Below are positions 3,505 to 11,758 of a stretch of 12,169 nt of DNA, piece by piece. How positions within the stretch are numbered: the first letter of the stretch is position 1; the number at the start of each line of letters is the position of its first letter. Made by a program: the position numbers and the translations under genes. The stretch is from a bacterium (GTDB lineage Bacteria > Zixibacteria > MSB-5A5 > GN15 > FEB-12). The notes under the pieces are model-generated. The model had not been told where the DNA came from. It saw nothing but the letters and a program-made list of their open reading frames with translations, and did no database searches. Where the stretch lies: NCBI GenBank assembly GCA_030668045.1, contig DAOUUR010000026.1:1-12169 (forward strand), given 5' to 3'.

Positions 3505-4464
3505 CTACGTTGACTCAGCAGTGACCCTATCTGTGAGCTCGCACGCCTCTGCCCCAAACACATCCTCCATCTGCCAGCCGGTCTTGCCTGTCTGCCGATA
3601 ATACTCCAGACGACGGATCGTTATCTCGGCATAGATTGGGTCAATGTCAAACGTCACACACCGGCGTCTCAAACGTTCGCAGGCCAGCAGCGTCGTTCCC
3701 GAATGCGAAAAGAAGTCGGCGACGATGTCGCTTTCTTTTGACGATGCCATAATGACACGTTCAATCGCCTTCAACGGTTTCTGCGCATAGCAACCGTTGA
3801 CGTTCTCTTCCAGTCGATAAAAAACCTGCTGAGTATCGACCCAGACATTACCCGGCCGGATATTGTTCGAGCGACTCCGCTGCATGTTCTCGGTTCGTTC
3901 CCCCCCGACATCCTTGTAGTAACCACGAAGGATTTTCGGAATGTCGGTGTACTGAACATCGAACGGCGGTTCACCCTTAGTATAGTAGAGTAACTCCTGC
4001 CGCACCGCCATCCAGTTCTTCTGCGTGCCGTACCCGCGCTGGTTACGAAGGGTGACAAATGAACGTGACTGAAAATCGGTGGTCGCCATCATCGCCATAA
4101 ACTGCGGCAACGGCTGAAAATGATTTTTCTGGTCCGCCCCGAGCCAGACATAGAACGATCCATCCTCGGCCATCATCCCCCACGAAAGATCAACCCACCG
4201 TCGGCACCAATCGATATACTCCGCGATCGGTCGACGCTGAAACGATACCATATTGTACGGCGGGTCGTGCAACGACAGGGTCGCTCGTCGGCTGTTGAAA
4301 ATCGATTCAACAAATTGGCGATCGGTCGCATCACCACATCCAACAACGTGCCGCCCTTCCGGATCGTGCCACAAATCGCCCGGCTGCAATCGGCATTCCG
4401 GAAGCAGTTGCTCACGAGTTGCGGCGTCCTCAAAATTAATCGCCGATGTCGTCCTCTTTACCAT
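3505..4464 (-). CDS. Solitary DNA methyltransferase (N6-adenine / N4-cytosine type, DPPY family)
   Basis: The protein begins with the common lead-in CRLQPGDLWHDPEGRHVVGCGDATD seen in many phage and orphan methyltransferases. Motif IV DPPY (residue 67-70 from the ATG) comes first, and the AdoMet-binding motif I, DFFSHSGTTLLACE, comes near the C terminus after QKPLKAIERVI. This order places it in the beta-type circular arrangement. The usual FxGSG loop reads FSHSG. It would transfer a methyl group from AdoMet to an exocyclic amino group in a specific site; the target is not predictable. No endonuclease gene is adjacent, so it may be an orphan regulatory or anti-restriction methylase. ATG at 4464 is chosen; an in-frame TTG lies 9 nt upstream at 4473. 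Neither has a good ribosome binding site, so the start is uncertain. Confidence 0.85.
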   Translation of the reverse strand: MVKRTTSAINFEDAATREQLLPECRLQPGDLWHDPEGRHVVGCGDATDRQFVESIFNSRRATLSLHDPPYNMVSFQRRPIAEYIDWCRRWVDLSWGMMAEDGSFYVWLGADQKNHFQPLPQFMAMMATTDFQSRSFVTLRNQRGYGTQKNWMAVRQELLYYTKGEPPFDVQYTDIPKILRGYYKDVGGERTENMQRSRSNNIRPGNVWVDTQQVFYRLEENVNGCYAQKPLKAIERVIMASSKESDIVADFFSHSGTTLLACERLRRRCVTFDIDPIYAEITIRRLEYYRQTGKTGWQMEDVFGAEACELTDRVTAEST

Positions 4465-4627
4465 CAATGACAAACAAGCACAGCCACCGGCTCATCTTCA
4501 ACAAAAACAGAGGGGCTGAGCCTCAGCTAAGTTCTTGCACTACACTTTTTCTTGTTTTCAAATACCCTTTAAGCTGCTGAGTATCTGCGCGTTACGCCTG
4601 AAGCGGAAAAAATACGCACCTTTCCGG

Positions 4628-4656
4628 TTGAGTCTTCTGTGAAATTGCCTTATATA
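4628..4656 (+). promoter_or_regulatory. Promoter candidate giving a leaderless HIT mRNA
   Basis: TTGAGT at 4628-4633 and TATATA at 4651-4656 are 17 nt apart. Transcription would start about 7 nt later, at or next to the ATG at 4664. An exact TATAAT also lies at 4655-4660, only 3 nt from the ATG. No Shine-Dalgarno sequence precedes the ATG, which fits a leaderless transcript. Confidence 0.4.
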
Positions 4657-4663
4657 TAATGCT

Positions 4664-5152
4664 ATGGCTGATAAGATGATATGGGCGCCCTGGAGGGCTG
4701 CCTTCATCCTTGGAAAGAAAGAAAAAGGCTGCATCTTCTGCAAGCGTATGAAGATGAAAGACTCGGTTAAGAACCTCATCCTCTTTCGTGGCGAAAAGAA
4801 TTTTGTGATCCTCAACAAGTTCCCATACAACACCGGTCACACTCTGGTCGTGCCGAATCGTCATACCGGTCAGATTGAAAAGTTGAACGCCGAGGAAGCT
4901 ATCGAGTTTTTTGATCTCGTCCGCAAATCAGTCACAGCCATAAAAAAAGCCCTCAAACCTGATTCAATGAATCTCGGGATGAATCTCGGTCGCGGTTCCG
5001 GTGCCGGTATTCCAGGACACGTCCACATGCATATCGTTCCCCGCTGGCAGGGCGACACCAACTTCATGTCGGTTATCGGAAAGACCAACGTCGTCTCAGT
5101 GCCGTTGGAACCGGTCTACGATGCCTTGAGGAAGGAGTTCTCGCGGTTGTGA
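4664..5152 (+). CDS. HIT-family protein (AP4A phosphorylase/hydrolase-like)
   Basis: A 162-residue protein with the full histidine triad GHVHMHIVPRW (H119, H121, H123), the upstream NKFPYNTGHTLVVPNRH strand, and the N-terminal IWAPWR and CIFC (residues 23-26) motifs. These N-terminal motifs mark the HIT branch that includes mycobacterial-type AP4A phosphorylase. Members bind and cleave nucleotides such as diadenosine polyphosphates or AMP conjugates through a nucleotidylated central histidine. Homologues usually begin close to the LWAPWR motif, so the second in-frame ATG at 4676 is a real alternative start. No ribosome binding site supports either. The stop overlaps the start of the next gene by 4 nt (GTGA), which implies translational coupling with the HTH/LeuC-like protein. 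Confidence 0.88.
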   Translation: MADKMIWAPWRAAFILGKKEKGCIFCKRMKMKDSVKNLILFRGEKNFVILNKFPYNTGHTLVVPNRHTGQIEKLNAEEAIEFFDLVRKSVTAIKKALKPDSMNLGMNLGRGSGAGIPGHVHMHIVPRWQGDTNFMSVIGKTNVVSVPLEPVYDALRKEFSRL

Positions 5153-6774
5153 CTGCTCGCAGAAAGATACCGACAAAGTCGGAGTTGATCCAACTGCAGA
5201 AGATTCACAAAACCGATGAGAAGATCGGTGAATACCTCGGTGGTGTTCCGGCCTATCTGATCGCATACTGGCGCCGCAAGAAAAACGTAGCGCGTCACTC
5301 GGTACCCAAATTCTCCGAAAAAGAAATCCGCTCCCTCTGGGAACGGTTTGGCGATGACGACAAGTGCGGTCTCGAACTCGGTATCTCCAAGGCAGCGTTC
5401 TATACATGGCGGCGACGCTACGGCATCCGCGAAAAACCGGCCTTCCTGAAACTCGAACAGCTTGAGTTCAATTTCCCCGGTGTCAAAACGCAGCGACATA
5501 CCGATACGCTCTATGGCAAACAGGCGTCGGTACAGAAAATTCTCGCGCGGGCAGCATCGGTTGAAAAAGTCGAGGTCGGCGAAACTATCACGGTTGAACC
5601 GCACCTGGTTATTGCGCGCGATTCATCGGGAACTATCATCAAGGAGTTTCAGAAGCTTGGCGCCGAATACGTTTTCAATCCGGCCCGGCTGGCTATCTCT
5701 CCCCTGGGGCAGGTCGAAGAGAATGTCGAAGTCGGCCCATCGACCTACGCCACAACCAGAGAATTTGCCCGGCGTCAGGGAATAAAAGCGTTCTACGATA
5801 TCCGCGATGGCTACACCAACCAGGTCATTCTGGAAAAGGCGCACATTCTCCCCGGTCAACTTGCGCTTTGCAACGATCCGCAGGGTCCGGTCTTCGGATG
5901 CTTGAACGCATGCGCCGAGACTGTCGATGCAGCGATGATCGCCCGCACCTGGGCAGAGGGAAAAATCGATCTTGAGGTTCCATCGACAACCTTCATCGAA
6001 ATTAACGGTCGTCGATCACGTGGTGTCTATGCTCGCGATATAGGTCTCTCGGCGGTTGGCCAGTTGGCTACCTACGATCTTGTTGGGAAGGCTATCGAAC
6101 TGAGCGGCTCGGTTGTTTCGCATATGAACATCGGCGAACGTTTCGCGCTGGCTGGCCTGATCCGGGACACTGGAGCCCGAACCGCCATCACACCGTTTGA
6201 TTCGATCACCCGACGCTTCCTCACCGGTCGAACGATGCAGGAGTATTTTCCGGTCGTCAGCGACAAAGATGCTGTCTACGAAAACCTGTACAAGATCAAT
6301 ATCGACCAGCTCGTCCCGCAGGTTGCCTGCCCCGGTTCGATCACCAGCGTCAAAGCAGCCGCCGAGTTGGAAGGTGTCGCGGTCGAGCAGATCATTCTGG
6401 GGACCTGTACCAGCGGACGGTTCGCCGACCTCCGCGTGGCCGCCGACATTCTCAAAGGCCGCAAAGTCCACCCCGACTGCCGCCTGATTATCATTCCAGC
6501 ATCACGGGCCGTTCAACTTGAAGCGCTCAAAAAAGGTTTGATTCGCGTGCTGGTGGAGGCCGGAGCGATTATCGCCAACCCCGGTTGTGCCGATCAGTTC
6601 CGTCCCGACTCCGAACTCTTCCCCTCCGGCCAACGCACCCTCGCCACCGCCGGGGCACGATTTATGAAACTGGGCGAAGAATCAAACACCGAAGTTTATC
6701 TCTGCTCCCCGGCCACTGCCGCCGCCTCAGCGATCAACGCGGCCATCACCGAACCAAGCAGGTACGTGAAATAG
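5149..6774 (+). CDS. Tandem-HTH protein fused to a degenerate LeuC/homoaconitase-like domain
   Basis: The 541-residue protein starts at GTG 5149 inside the HIT stop. Residues 8-47 and 54-93 are two similar helix-turn-helix units, each ending in a YWRRKK or TWRRRYGI element. From residue 118 it aligns by eye with archaeal-type 3-isopropylmalate/homoaconitate dehydratase large subunits: YDIRDGYTNQVILEKAHILPGQ, GVYARDIGLSAVGQLA, GTCTSGRFADLRVAADILKGRK, IIPASRAVQLEALKKGLI and SPATAAASAI. However, the DSHT motif reads NDPQ (242-245), and of the PGCxxC cluster motif only C480 remains, with Q483 replacing the last cysteine; C420 is kept. The NRNF motif near the end is also lost. A normal 4Fe-4S hydratase is therefore unlikely. 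No small subunit (LeuD) gene follows. I infer a DNA-binding regulator that senses a metabolite or metal through an aconitase-fold domain. Confidence 0.8.
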   Translation: MTARRKIPTKSELIQLQKIHKTDEKIGEYLGGVPAYLIAYWRRKKNVARHSVPKFSEKEIRSLWERFGDDDKCGLELGISKAAFYTWRRRYGIREKPAFLKLEQLEFNFPGVKTQRHTDTLYGKQASVQKILARAASVEKVEVGETITVEPHLVIARDSSGTIIKEFQKLGAEYVFNPARLAISPLGQVEENVEVGPSTYATTREFARRQGIKAFYDIRDGYTNQVILEKAHILPGQLALCNDPQGPVFGCLNACAETVDAAMIARTWAEGKIDLEVPSTTFIEINGRRSRGVYARDIGLSAVGQLATYDLVGKAIELSGSVVSHMNIGERFALAGLIRDTGARTAITPFDSITRRFLTGRTMQEYFPVVSDKDAVYENLYKINIDQLVPQVACPGSITSVKAAAELEGVAVEQIILGTCTSGRFADLRVAADILKGRKVHPDCRLIIIPASRAVQLEALKKGLIRVLVEAGAIIANPGCADQFRPDSELFPSGQRTLATAGARFMKLGEESNTEVYLCSPATAAASAINAAITEPSRYVK

Positions 6775-9529: not shown

Positions 9530-10120
9530 CTATTTCCTTTTCTTCCGATAAGCCGCTACGCCACTGACCATGCCAAGGGCAAACAGCATCATTGTGCCCG
9601 GCTCCGGTACGGCACCGGTTACCGTCAACTCGATACCATCGTTTTCGAAATGGCAGTCAGGATCAAAACCGAAGCCGACCATACCATCGTTGGCTACATA
9701 GTCCGACCAGTCATCCAAGAAGCCGAGGCTCGAAAAGGTGTAGGTAAGATCAACACCAGTAAAAACGTCGTCTTCCCATGCTTCAATCAGAACACCCCCA
9801 TAACACTCAAAATAGTCTTCTTCAACATTGGGATCATCCCAATACTTTGTAGTACCGAGGGTTACATCGTCCAGCAGACGAATAAAAAGAATGTTCGATG
9901 ACAAAGGAGCCGTGTTCTGGATGTTCTTAAATGTCAGTACAACTTCCTCGAAATACCAGCCGGGGTCGGCAAATTCGAGTCCCCATGTCCAAGCGTTGTC
10001 GTGACGTAAATCACCAAGATCAGCGGGATCCGGTTCAAAGACAAAAACCCCGGCCGAGACCGGCATGGCAGCCATCAGGAAACCGACTACCAGAACTGCA
10101 ACGCAAAGCGTTCTTTTCAT
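9530..10120 (-). CDS. PEP-CTERM sorting domain protein
   Basis: A 196-residue exported protein. Residues 1-23 form a signal peptide ending MPVSAG. The C terminus is a complete PEP-CTERM signal: VPEPGTMMLFALGMVSGVAAYRKKRK, with the VPEP motif at 171-174, a hydrophobic helix and a basic tail. Such proteins are processed by an exosortase and are linked to extracellular polymer or biofilm production; no exosortase gene lies in the window. The body is rich in aromatic and acidic residues and beta-like, without a named domain that I recognise. ATG 10120 has AGGTAGGTG about 5 nt upstream. A strong terminator follows. Confidence 0.87.
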   Translation of the reverse strand: MKRTLCVAVLVVGFLMAAMPVSAGVFVFEPDPADLGDLRHDNAWTWGLEFADPGWYFEEVVLTFKNIQNTAPLSSNILFIRLLDDVTLGTTKYWDDPNVEEDYFECYGGVLIEAWEDDVFTGVDLTYTFSSLGFLDDWSDYVANDGMVGFGFDPDCHFENDGIELTVTGAVPEPGTMMLFALGMVSGVAAYRKKRK

Positions 10121-10216: not shown

Positions 10217-10272
10217 AAAAAAACCCGCACACCCACAACTCGTTGCATGTTAGAGGATTACGATGGGTGCGT
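10217..10272 (-). terminator. Probable terminator of the MscS-family gene
   Basis: On the minus strand CGCACCCA pairs with TGGG-TG-TGCG (a 2-nt bulge), an inner TCGT pairs with ACGA, and the stem is followed by GGTTTTTTTATT. It lies about 115 bp downstream of the channel gene stop and before the start of the PEP-CTERM gene. The loop is long, so the fold is less certain than the T-run. Confidence 0.6.
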
Positions 10273-10385: not shown

Positions 10386-11639
10386 TTAGCCGCCGATCGG
10401 ACCGGGATTTCCAGCGATAGCTTGGAAATCATGGCCAGTTGGATGCTGAAAGACCCGCAGGTCAAACTCTGGAATTACGGCCAGGATGTGGTCAAAAATG
10501 TCTGACTGGATATCTTCGTATCGGACCCAATCCTGGTCGCAGCTGAAAACGTATATTTCAATCGGCAGTCCGTTTGGGCCGGGTGGCAGTTGGCGAACAA
10601 GGAAGGTCATCTCCTGATGGATCATGGGATGATGGCGCAGGTAGGCCACCAAATATGCCCGAAAAGTCCCCAGATTGGTCAGGTTGCGGCCATTTATCAA
10701 TTCGGAAGTATCGATGTTCTGGTTCTGATTGTACTGAGTCACTTCGTCTTGTTTCGATTTGACGTCGCCTGCGATCAATTCGAACTTCTCAAACCGCTGA
10801 AGCATCTCCGGCGTGCAGAATTTCACCGTCGCCATATCAATATCGACCGCCCGCTTGATACGGCGCCCTGTTGATTCACTCATACCGCGCCAGTTCTTAA
10901 ACGAATCAGATATCAGCGCATAGGCAGGAATGGTCGTTATGGTCTTGTCCCAGTTCTGGACCTTTATCGTATTGAGTGTGACATCAACCACATCGCCATC
11001 GGCACCATACTTCGGCATTTCGATCCAGTCCCCGATACGCACCATATCATTGGAGGAAAGTTGTATCGATGCTACCAGACCGAGGATTGAATCCTTAAAC
11101 ACCAAGAGGATGACCGCTGTCATCGCTCCCAGGCCGCTCAACAGTAGCCAGGGGGAGCGGTCCATCAGCGTCCCGACGGCGATAATGCCAACAAAGACGA
11201 AAATGATAACCTTGGCAATCTGGACGTATCCTTTGATCGGTCGCTGACGGGAGATTTCAAAAGTGCGGTAGATATCGACCACAGCGTTCAGAAACGAATT
11301 TGCCACAAGGATACCGGCCAGCATCATATAGACCAGTGATAGCCGCTCCACAATATCTGTCACCTGCGGAAATAGCTGGGCGCTGGCATATATTACCATA
11401 GCGGGAGCCAAATGCGAAAGGCGGGAGAATACTTTCTGCCTTTGCAGCGTGTCGTCCCACTCGGTCTGACTTTTCTTCACCAGGAAACTAACCGCCCCGA
11501 GAAGAAACCGCTTGGCGATATAGTTTGAGACAAAAGCCAGCAGCAAGACGATCACCGCCGCCAGCGGCCAGGCAACATTATGAGCAGAACCTGAGCCCAG
11601 ACCCTGTGCAACCAGCCAGTTACTGAGTGTTTCTATCAT
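10386..11639 (-). CDS. ybdG: MscS-family mechanosensitive channel, YbdG-like
   Basis: A 417-residue inner-membrane protein, nearly the length of E. coli YbdG (415). About five hydrophobic segments lie in the first 190 residues (around 24-39, 78-91, 102-122, 141-158, 166-182). The pore-lining region LLSGLGAMTAVILLVFKDSILGLVASIQL (167-195) is followed by the MscS beta domain with MVRIGDWIEMPKYGADGDVVDVTLNTIKVQNWDKTITTIPAYALISDSFKNWRGM (199 on; key elements GDW, GxV and IPN-like IPA). The C terminus YEDIQSDIFDHILAVIPEFDLRVFQHPTGHDF is characteristic of the YbdG branch. It releases solutes when membrane tension rises after osmotic downshock. The start at 11639 has GAGGA about 9 nt upstream. It is transcribed alone. 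The symbol is by family resemblance. Confidence 0.88.
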   Translation of the reverse strand: MIETLSNWLVAQGLGSGSAHNVAWPLAAVIVLLLAFVSNYIAKRFLLGAVSFLVKKSQTEWDDTLQRQKVFSRLSHLAPAMVIYASAQLFPQVTDIVERLSLVYMMLAGILVANSFLNAVVDIYRTFEISRQRPIKGYVQIAKVIIFVFVGIIAVGTLMDRSPWLLLSGLGAMTAVILLVFKDSILGLVASIQLSSNDMVRIGDWIEMPKYGADGDVVDVTLNTIKVQNWDKTITTIPAYALISDSFKNWRGMSESTGRRIKRAVDIDMATVKFCTPEMLQRFEKFELIAGDVKSKQDEVTQYNQNQNIDTSELINGRNLTNLGTFRAYLVAYLRHHPMIHQEMTFLVRQLPPGPNGLPIEIYVFSCDQDWVRYEDIQSDIFDHILAVIPEFDLRVFQHPTGHDFQAIAGNPGPIGG

Positions 11640-11758
11640 TTTCCAATCCTCGTTTCGGCAATCAATTGATTTTTAGCTGATCAATGATAGGAAAAGGTAA
11701 TGACGGAAAGCAATTAACAACAGAGTAGCATTTGATTAAAAAGCAACAAACTGGCGAA

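Follow-up and report, generated by a model that had tools for sequence, protein, structure and literature searches.

What purpose does a LeuC-like protein serve when it carries a putative DNA-binding head and has lost most of its active site? The question is posed by a gene in a 12,169-nucleotide stretch of DNA (the window: positions 1 to 12,169 of contig DAOUUR010000026.1, assembly GCA_030668045.1) from a member of the phylum Candidatus Zixiibacteriota, whose genome family we denote f1. An initial annotation, made from the sequence alone, described two HTH units fused to a LeuC-like domain and suggested a pseudo-enzyme that acts as a sensor or transcription factor. The features discussed here are as follows.

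4569..4595, no strand: candidate operator, inverted repeat TAAC-N3-TTG-N5-CAA-N3-GTTA, 16.4 bits (this region was among those used for training the motif)
4628..4656, +: candidate sigma-70 promoter TTGAGT-N17-TATATA, found by eye, with 7 nt between it and the HIT start codon
4664..5152, +: HIT-family gene (PF01230, E 3.8e-15), overlapping the fusion gene by 4 nt
5149..6774, +: HTH-LeuC fusion gene, 541 aa, an ORF call with full-length relatives across the phylum
5176..5280, +: first predicted HTH unit, residues 10-44
5317..5418, +: second predicted HTH unit, residues 57-90 (predicted helices; Pfam HTH_Tnp_1 below cut-off)
5419..5478, +: conserved linker, residues 91-110 (P97, L100 and Q104 invariant in 90/90 aligned fusions)
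5527..6759, +: LeuC/homoaconitase-fold domain, residues 127-537, active site decayed
10235..10261, no strand: further repeat copy, 18.3 bits; its centre lies 128 bp upstream of a PEP-CTERM protein gene (9530-10120, -)
11728..11754, no strand: weaker repeat copy with a near-chance score of 12.1 bits; its centre lies 102 bp upstream of an MscS-like gene (10386-11639, -)

Architecture and active site of the window protein

The fusion gene begins with GTG, and in the ORF coordinates its first four nucleotides overlap the stop codon of the upstream HIT gene. Its larger part is a complete LeuC body. LeuC from M. jannaschii (4kp1) aligns over its full length with residues 127-536 (E 1.3e-63), PF00330 matches with an E-value of 2.9e-48, and NCBIfam PRK00402 gives 320.1 bits, which is below its curated cut-off of 385. 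The AF2 model consists of two HTH units followed by the LeuC fold, and a Foldseek search with it recovers 4kp1 (E 7e-44, TM 0.91 by target), as expected for a full-length aconitase fold. Both the profile search and the structural comparison with an archaeal LeuC that the initial annotation had proposed thus agree with the fusion that it described. A Pfam scan of the protein found no Aconitase_C domain, the LeuD-like domain 4.

The head of the protein is less securely assigned. Each unit is predicted to form three helices (residues 10-20, 23-29 and 35-44 in the first; 57-67, 70-77 and 81-90 in the second), and a second prediction is much alike. In the profile search, Pfam HTH_Tnp_1 matches weakly (E 0.0068, 17.0 bits), under the cut-off of 24.1, which one of the seven HTH parts scanned passes (locus L076, 24.3 bits). 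The nearest structural chains include the Mos1 transposase HTH and FapR, and the three-helix geometry predicted for the fusion is also that of the HTH domains of GcrA, Fis, NtrC4 and Mos1. The assignment is mainly prediction-based.

Aligned to LeuC, the window protein keeps three of 14 active-site residues (D243, C420 and C480). Of the losses claimed initially, that of the DSHT motif needs qualification: the motif is degraded, but its Asp survives because DSHT aligns with D243-P244-Q245-G246. The reported loss of a cluster cysteine stands, since Q483 replaces the third cysteine while C480 and also C420 are kept (two of three), as does the loss of NRNF, where N383, R384 and R389 (Mj numbering) correspond to G502, A503 and L508. 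Judged by these residues, the protein is probably no longer a hydratase. Relative to LeuC/HacA (PRK00402, TIGR01343, PDB 4kp1), it shares the fold, the full-length alignment and descent, but it has gained the HTH part and lost the active site, one Fe-S cysteine and an adjacent leuD.

Distribution and decay across the phylum

The architecture is a phylum-wide character and not a local oddity, as the survey of genomes suggested by the initial annotation makes clear. The HTH part was found in 120 of the 132 phylum genomes and in 76 of the 78 of good quality (those without a match being G002 and G044), with one convincing copy each, although G052 has a second match (E 4e-4); it was found in 0/254 bacterial genomes outside the phylum. 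This presence, together with the full-length relatives, led us to reject a chance ORF. Merging duplicate loci left 116 fusion proteins longer than 300 aa (an earlier alignment held 90 fusions), and every one is matched by a canonical LeuC profile built from 10 sequences with the fusions excluded. Scores run from 647 down to 12 bits, and E-values, for a search of 116 sequences, are below 1e-11 for all except L172, which is partial and scores 12 bits (E 4e-4). We therefore regard the fusions as one gene family that extends from an intact active site to a near-unrecognisable remnant.

All 14 active-site residues are present in 10 of the 116 fusions, 12 are present and two are masked in L176, and 0-11 are present in the other 105. 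The intact members come from genome families f6, f12, f13 and f14. The two that were scanned, L076 and L070, score 582.6 and 591.9 bits against the curated cut-off of 385, and their LeuD proteins reach 209.8 and 205.7 bits with TIGR02087 (cut-off 109). A leuD gene lies within 180 bp downstream in nine of the ten intact loci and in L176; in the tenth, the contig ends 371 bases on. Because these ten relatives keep every catalytic residue examined, nine of them with leuD, they are probably still hydratases. Homologues of this kind had been named initially as evidence against a pseudo-enzyme. That idea probably fails for the ten and probably holds for the window protein. On sequence, a putative DNA-binding head joined to a pseudo-enzyme is well supported, and the pattern is phylum-wide.

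A quick LG tree, for which the tool warned of long branches, places the fusions in one clade separate from canonical LeuC, with f15/f16 branching first, then the intact families and then a large decayed group; the partial proteins L172 and L144 were left out, and L176 is labelled intact despite its two masked positions. If lost residues are never regained, the tree requires 16-33 losses per site, a figure that chance matches inflate.

The genomic setting is shared by intact and decayed members alike. A HIT gene lies upstream on the same strand, at most 1,222 bp away, in 114/116 loci, and by ORF coordinates the overlap is exactly 4 nt in 62/116. The neighbour on the other side of the intact genes, leuD, is absent after the window gene, as had been noted initially. 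Nine decayed members have a leuD-like gene downstream (L053, L057, L058, L082, L084, L086, L093, L096 and L158), and in three others (L110, L111 and L116) it is displaced to the other strand. In these three loci, the leuD-like genes are degenerate and sit near a DNA methylase, with a few kb separating them from the HTH-LeuC operon; apparently the small subunit was moved away and decayed in its turn. This N6/N4 DNA methylase also occurs in the window (3505-4473, -). Its close orthologues are confined to the family of the window (44 genomes, E <1e-60), and in 33 of these 44 genomes it shares a contig with the HTH-LeuC gene, from which it is no more than about 4 kb away, in varying order and orientation.

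Within the 94%-complete assembly that contains the window, leuA was not found, and the single HMGL-like gene is a hydroxymethylglutaryl-CoA lyase (280.8 bits against 246). AcnA is the sole other aconitase-family large part found (817 bits against a cut-off of 686, for part of the protein). A C-terminal LeuD/homoaconitase-type piece of 100 residues does occur at a contig end (G000:C223:3-302, L183; TIGR00139 50.9 bits, not full length). A LeuD elsewhere in the genome is thus possible as a partner for the window protein, and no large subunit to match the piece was found in this genome.

Selection acts differently on the two halves of the protein before and after decay. We compared identities in the 40 closest pairs, which share members and so are not independent. 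In 20/20 intact pairs, identity in the LeuC domain does not fall below that in the HTH part (to two decimals, with one tie), and in 20/20 decayed pairs, the HTH part is more conserved than the LeuC domain. In decayed members, dN/dS is 0.003-0.10 for the HTH part and 0.05-0.17 for the LeuC domain (where dS is not saturated), so the decayed domain is still under purifying selection. Mean column entropies follow the same course: HTH 0.66, LeuC 0.54 and pocket 0.00 bits in the intact members (n=10), and HTH 0.33, the rest of the LeuC domain 1.67 and pocket 2.93 bits in f1 (n=46). The excess of variation in the f1 pocket columns over the rest of the domain is significant (p 7e-6), although the alignment is less sure there. 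This swap of constraint makes the change of function testable. It is well supported that the LeuC-derived window protein is kept for its HTH part and not for catalysis.

Ten LeuC-domain positions (residues 209, 291, 355, 429, 466, 373, 348, 444, 519 and 425) are newly conserved in f1 relative to the canonical and intact proteins. They comprise five Arg, one Lys, three Cys and one Phe, with the window protein having Thr at 348, and might form a new surface or a metal site.

These data bear on three other accounts of the gene. The most improbable is that it is a decaying pseudogene. Some families do show extreme C-terminal divergence (12-130 bits), but nearly all full-length matches listed have open frames (two long fusions, in G057 and G106, contain an internal stop), the HTH part persists in nearly every good-quality genome, and the dN/dS values of both halves led us to reject the idea. 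It is also very unlikely that the window protein is still active as a hydratase, extended at its N-terminus and changed in its chemistry. Intact members with leuD exist, two of three cluster cysteines remain and the genome retains its LeuD/homoaconitase-type piece; the survival in the window protein of just three of the 14 residues of the active site and the unconserved pocket nevertheless caused this candidate to be rejected, and the decay of 105 of the 116 loci, the failure to find leuA and the lack of leuD beside the gene point the same way. More credible, yet unlikely, is a one-component metabolite sensor whose old pocket binds an isopropylmalate-like ligand and so controls DNA binding. 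There are regulators of enzymatic origin that have ligand-binding domains, such as BzdR (PMC3602430), and the LeuC domain is still under purifying selection. However, the pocket is the most variable part of the f1 proteins, no new pocket consensus was seen in the 46 f1 sequences, the substrate-binding arginines are kept in just 14% and 21% of 90 fusions, and close relatives would need differing ligands. Such hypervariability argues against one conserved ligand. The initial proposal of a sensor for a dicarboxylate or isopropylmalate-like compound is accordingly unsupported and a single-ligand sensor disfavoured, while a LeuC domain that serves as a scaffold fits the pattern of entropy and constraint better.

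Candidate promoter and operator of the HIT operon

Promoter regions could be obtained for 113 of the 116 fusion loci. In f1, a TAnnnT box ends 4-10 nt before the HIT start in 39/45 regions (shuffled mean 10.2, maximum 17), and GGAG, GAGG or AGGA occurs in the last 20 nt before that start in 0/45. Across all families, a -10-like box is present in 74/113 regions and a Shine-Dalgarno-like word in 16/113. Given a box so close to the start and no Shine-Dalgarno-like word, the f1 messages of the HIT operon are probably leaderless. DnaA-box-like sequences (TTATCCACA/TGTGGATAA) were also seen upstream of HIT in 6/45 f1 regions.

The inverted repeat was found de novo by EM in the 45 f1 upstream regions (LL 295 against 118 for one shuffled set). 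In 38/45 of these training sequences it scores above 11.5 bits, a threshold set at the 99% level for shuffled regions, and in 21/45 the distance from the beginning of the best site to the HIT start is 93-97 bp. When the genera were split, both halves returned the same motif, and 12/21 and 15/24 held-out regions were above the 99% shuffled level. In untrained families, own promoters above 11.5 bits were found in f9 (2/4), f10 (1/4), f5 (1/4) and f13 (1/4), and none were found in f2 (6 promoters), f3 (4), f4 (11), f6 (1), f7 (2), f8 (1), f12 (3), f14 (2), f15 (4), f16 (5), f17 (4), f18 (2) or f19 (7). The site is absent from 9/10 intact-family promoters scanned. Outside their own promoters, the f1 loci hold 34 more PWM matches above 11.5 bits (18 intergenic, 16 coding), where permuted PWMs on the same DNA give 13.6 on average and 32 at most; the f2, f3 and f4 loci hold 21 (17 intergenic; permuted 9.0, maximum 21).

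Whole-genome counts extend this picture. They are given here as matches to YAANNNNYTRNNNNNYARNNNNTTR, to the reversed pattern and to a spacing-shifted pattern, in that order.

Genome of the window: 21, 7, 9
Ten f1 genomes together: 367, 94, 67, with an excess over both controls in 10/10
Other families with more matches than either control: f2 47, 19, 9; f3 64, 16, 13; f4 64, 33, 12 and 52, 17, 14; f5 25, 8, 2; f7 12, 7, 5; f9 43, 22, 8; f10 39, 16, 3; f12 33, 24, 16; f16 71, 29, 9; f19 31, 7, 2
No or hardly any excess over the reversed control: f14 32, 35, 19; f18 21, 22, 8; f17 19, 23, 7; f8 23, 19, 19
Outside the phylum (six genomes), no clear excess: G133 13, 15, 14; G135 3, 12, 2; G138 17, 35, 30; G139 20, 18, 12
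Outside the phylum, weak excess in G136: 26, 10, 13; strong excess in G134: 50, 7, 7

The repeat itself is real. Who binds it is a separate matter, and we assign it to the HTH-LeuC protein tentatively, on sequence grounds. There is an almost even chance that the protein is a DNA-binding regulator that binds elsewhere and that the repeat belongs to some other transcription factor with a wider distribution, an account that overlaps with our main explanation and denies the operator only. In G134 (L229-L268), a genome of another phylum, the 25-bp repeat is present at 50 places, and a rough gene model puts 21 of these between genes. Neither a profile search of 762 kb (about 30%) around the sites (best E 5) nor a single-sequence search of the whole genome found an HTH homologue there, so another factor may own the motif. 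The half-site sub-motifs are also only ~6.5 bp apart, which leaves little room for two HTH units to sit on the same face of the DNA, and f18 has a typical HTH yet no clear motif excess. On the other side are the site in the f1 promoters of the gene itself, both in training and in held-out sequences, and the tendency of motif excess to track HTH similarity. HTH identity to the window protein correlates with motif excess across 25 genomes whose relatives are not independent (Spearman 0.63) and outside f1 (0.57, n=15); with the spacing control alone, the value is 0.36 (p 0.08).

A putative regulator derived from LeuC

The explanation that we favour, with moderate confidence, is a LeuC-derived DNA-binding regulator whose enzyme domain has become a scaffold. 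The fusion itself, its single-copy presence across the phylum, the decay of the active site, the swap of constraint and the link with HIT are computational results. From them we infer DNA binding, regulation, dimerisation and the order of events as follows. An ancestral LeuC/homoaconitase large subunit would have sat in a HIT-leuC-leuD operon and gained its N-terminal tandem HTH before the phylum diversified. Catalysis would then have been abandoned repeatedly and in parallel in the lineages of the window, with leuD lost from the operon and the protein retained as a putative DNA-binding regulator. Its LeuC domain would not sense one fixed metabolite but act as a folded scaffold, through which the protein probably dimerises or binds a partner. 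Transcription regulation is a natural inference, and the regulator might, tentatively, bind the candidate repeat that lies upstream of the operon encoding it and of further genes. In f1, the candidate repeat is placed like an activator site, its centre about 80 bp before the probably leaderless start.

Enzymes turned regulators have precedents. In the IRPs, RNA is bound by the aconitase body, there is no HTH and the LeuD-like domain 4 is kept, unlike in the window protein, whose chain has no such domain. IRP1 and IRP2 are the aconitase-superfamily precedent as RNA-binding regulators (PMC4056636), and share with HTH-LeuC an aconitase fold turned (putatively, in our case) to regulation. BzdR, according to PMC3602430, fuses an N-terminal DNA-binding domain to a shikimate-kinase-like, enzyme-derived domain in which loss of activity was needed. 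It resembles HTH-LeuC in having an N-terminal DNA-binding head (predicted in HTH-LeuC) and an enzyme-derived domain with catalytic residues lost. It differs in its fold and in responding to benzoyl-CoA, whereas the HTH-LeuC pocket is not conserved, and in that HTH-LeuC still has natural relatives whose active site is intact. We found no description of an HTH-fused LeuC in the literature searched.

So far, the case that enzymes evolve into regulators has been built on single proteins and on artificial chimeras (BzdR, PMC3602430). Here, one orthologous family forms a living series, from an intact active site with HTH and leuD, through partly decayed members, to the barely recognisable, which suggests a LeuC turned putative DNA-binding regulator with extant intermediates. 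The boldest version falls somewhat short of an even prospect in our estimation: a phylum-defining global regulator made from a hydratase by one HTH capture and parallel loss of catalysis, with living bifunctional intermediates, that would bind the 25-bp repeat at its own promoter and, in each genome, at tens of promoters or more in all. We know of no model organism in Candidatus Zixiibacteriota. If our explanation is true, the aconitase superfamily would include, in addition to the IRPs that bind RNA, a regulator that carries a DNA-binding head, and this protein would perhaps be a main regulator of the phylum.
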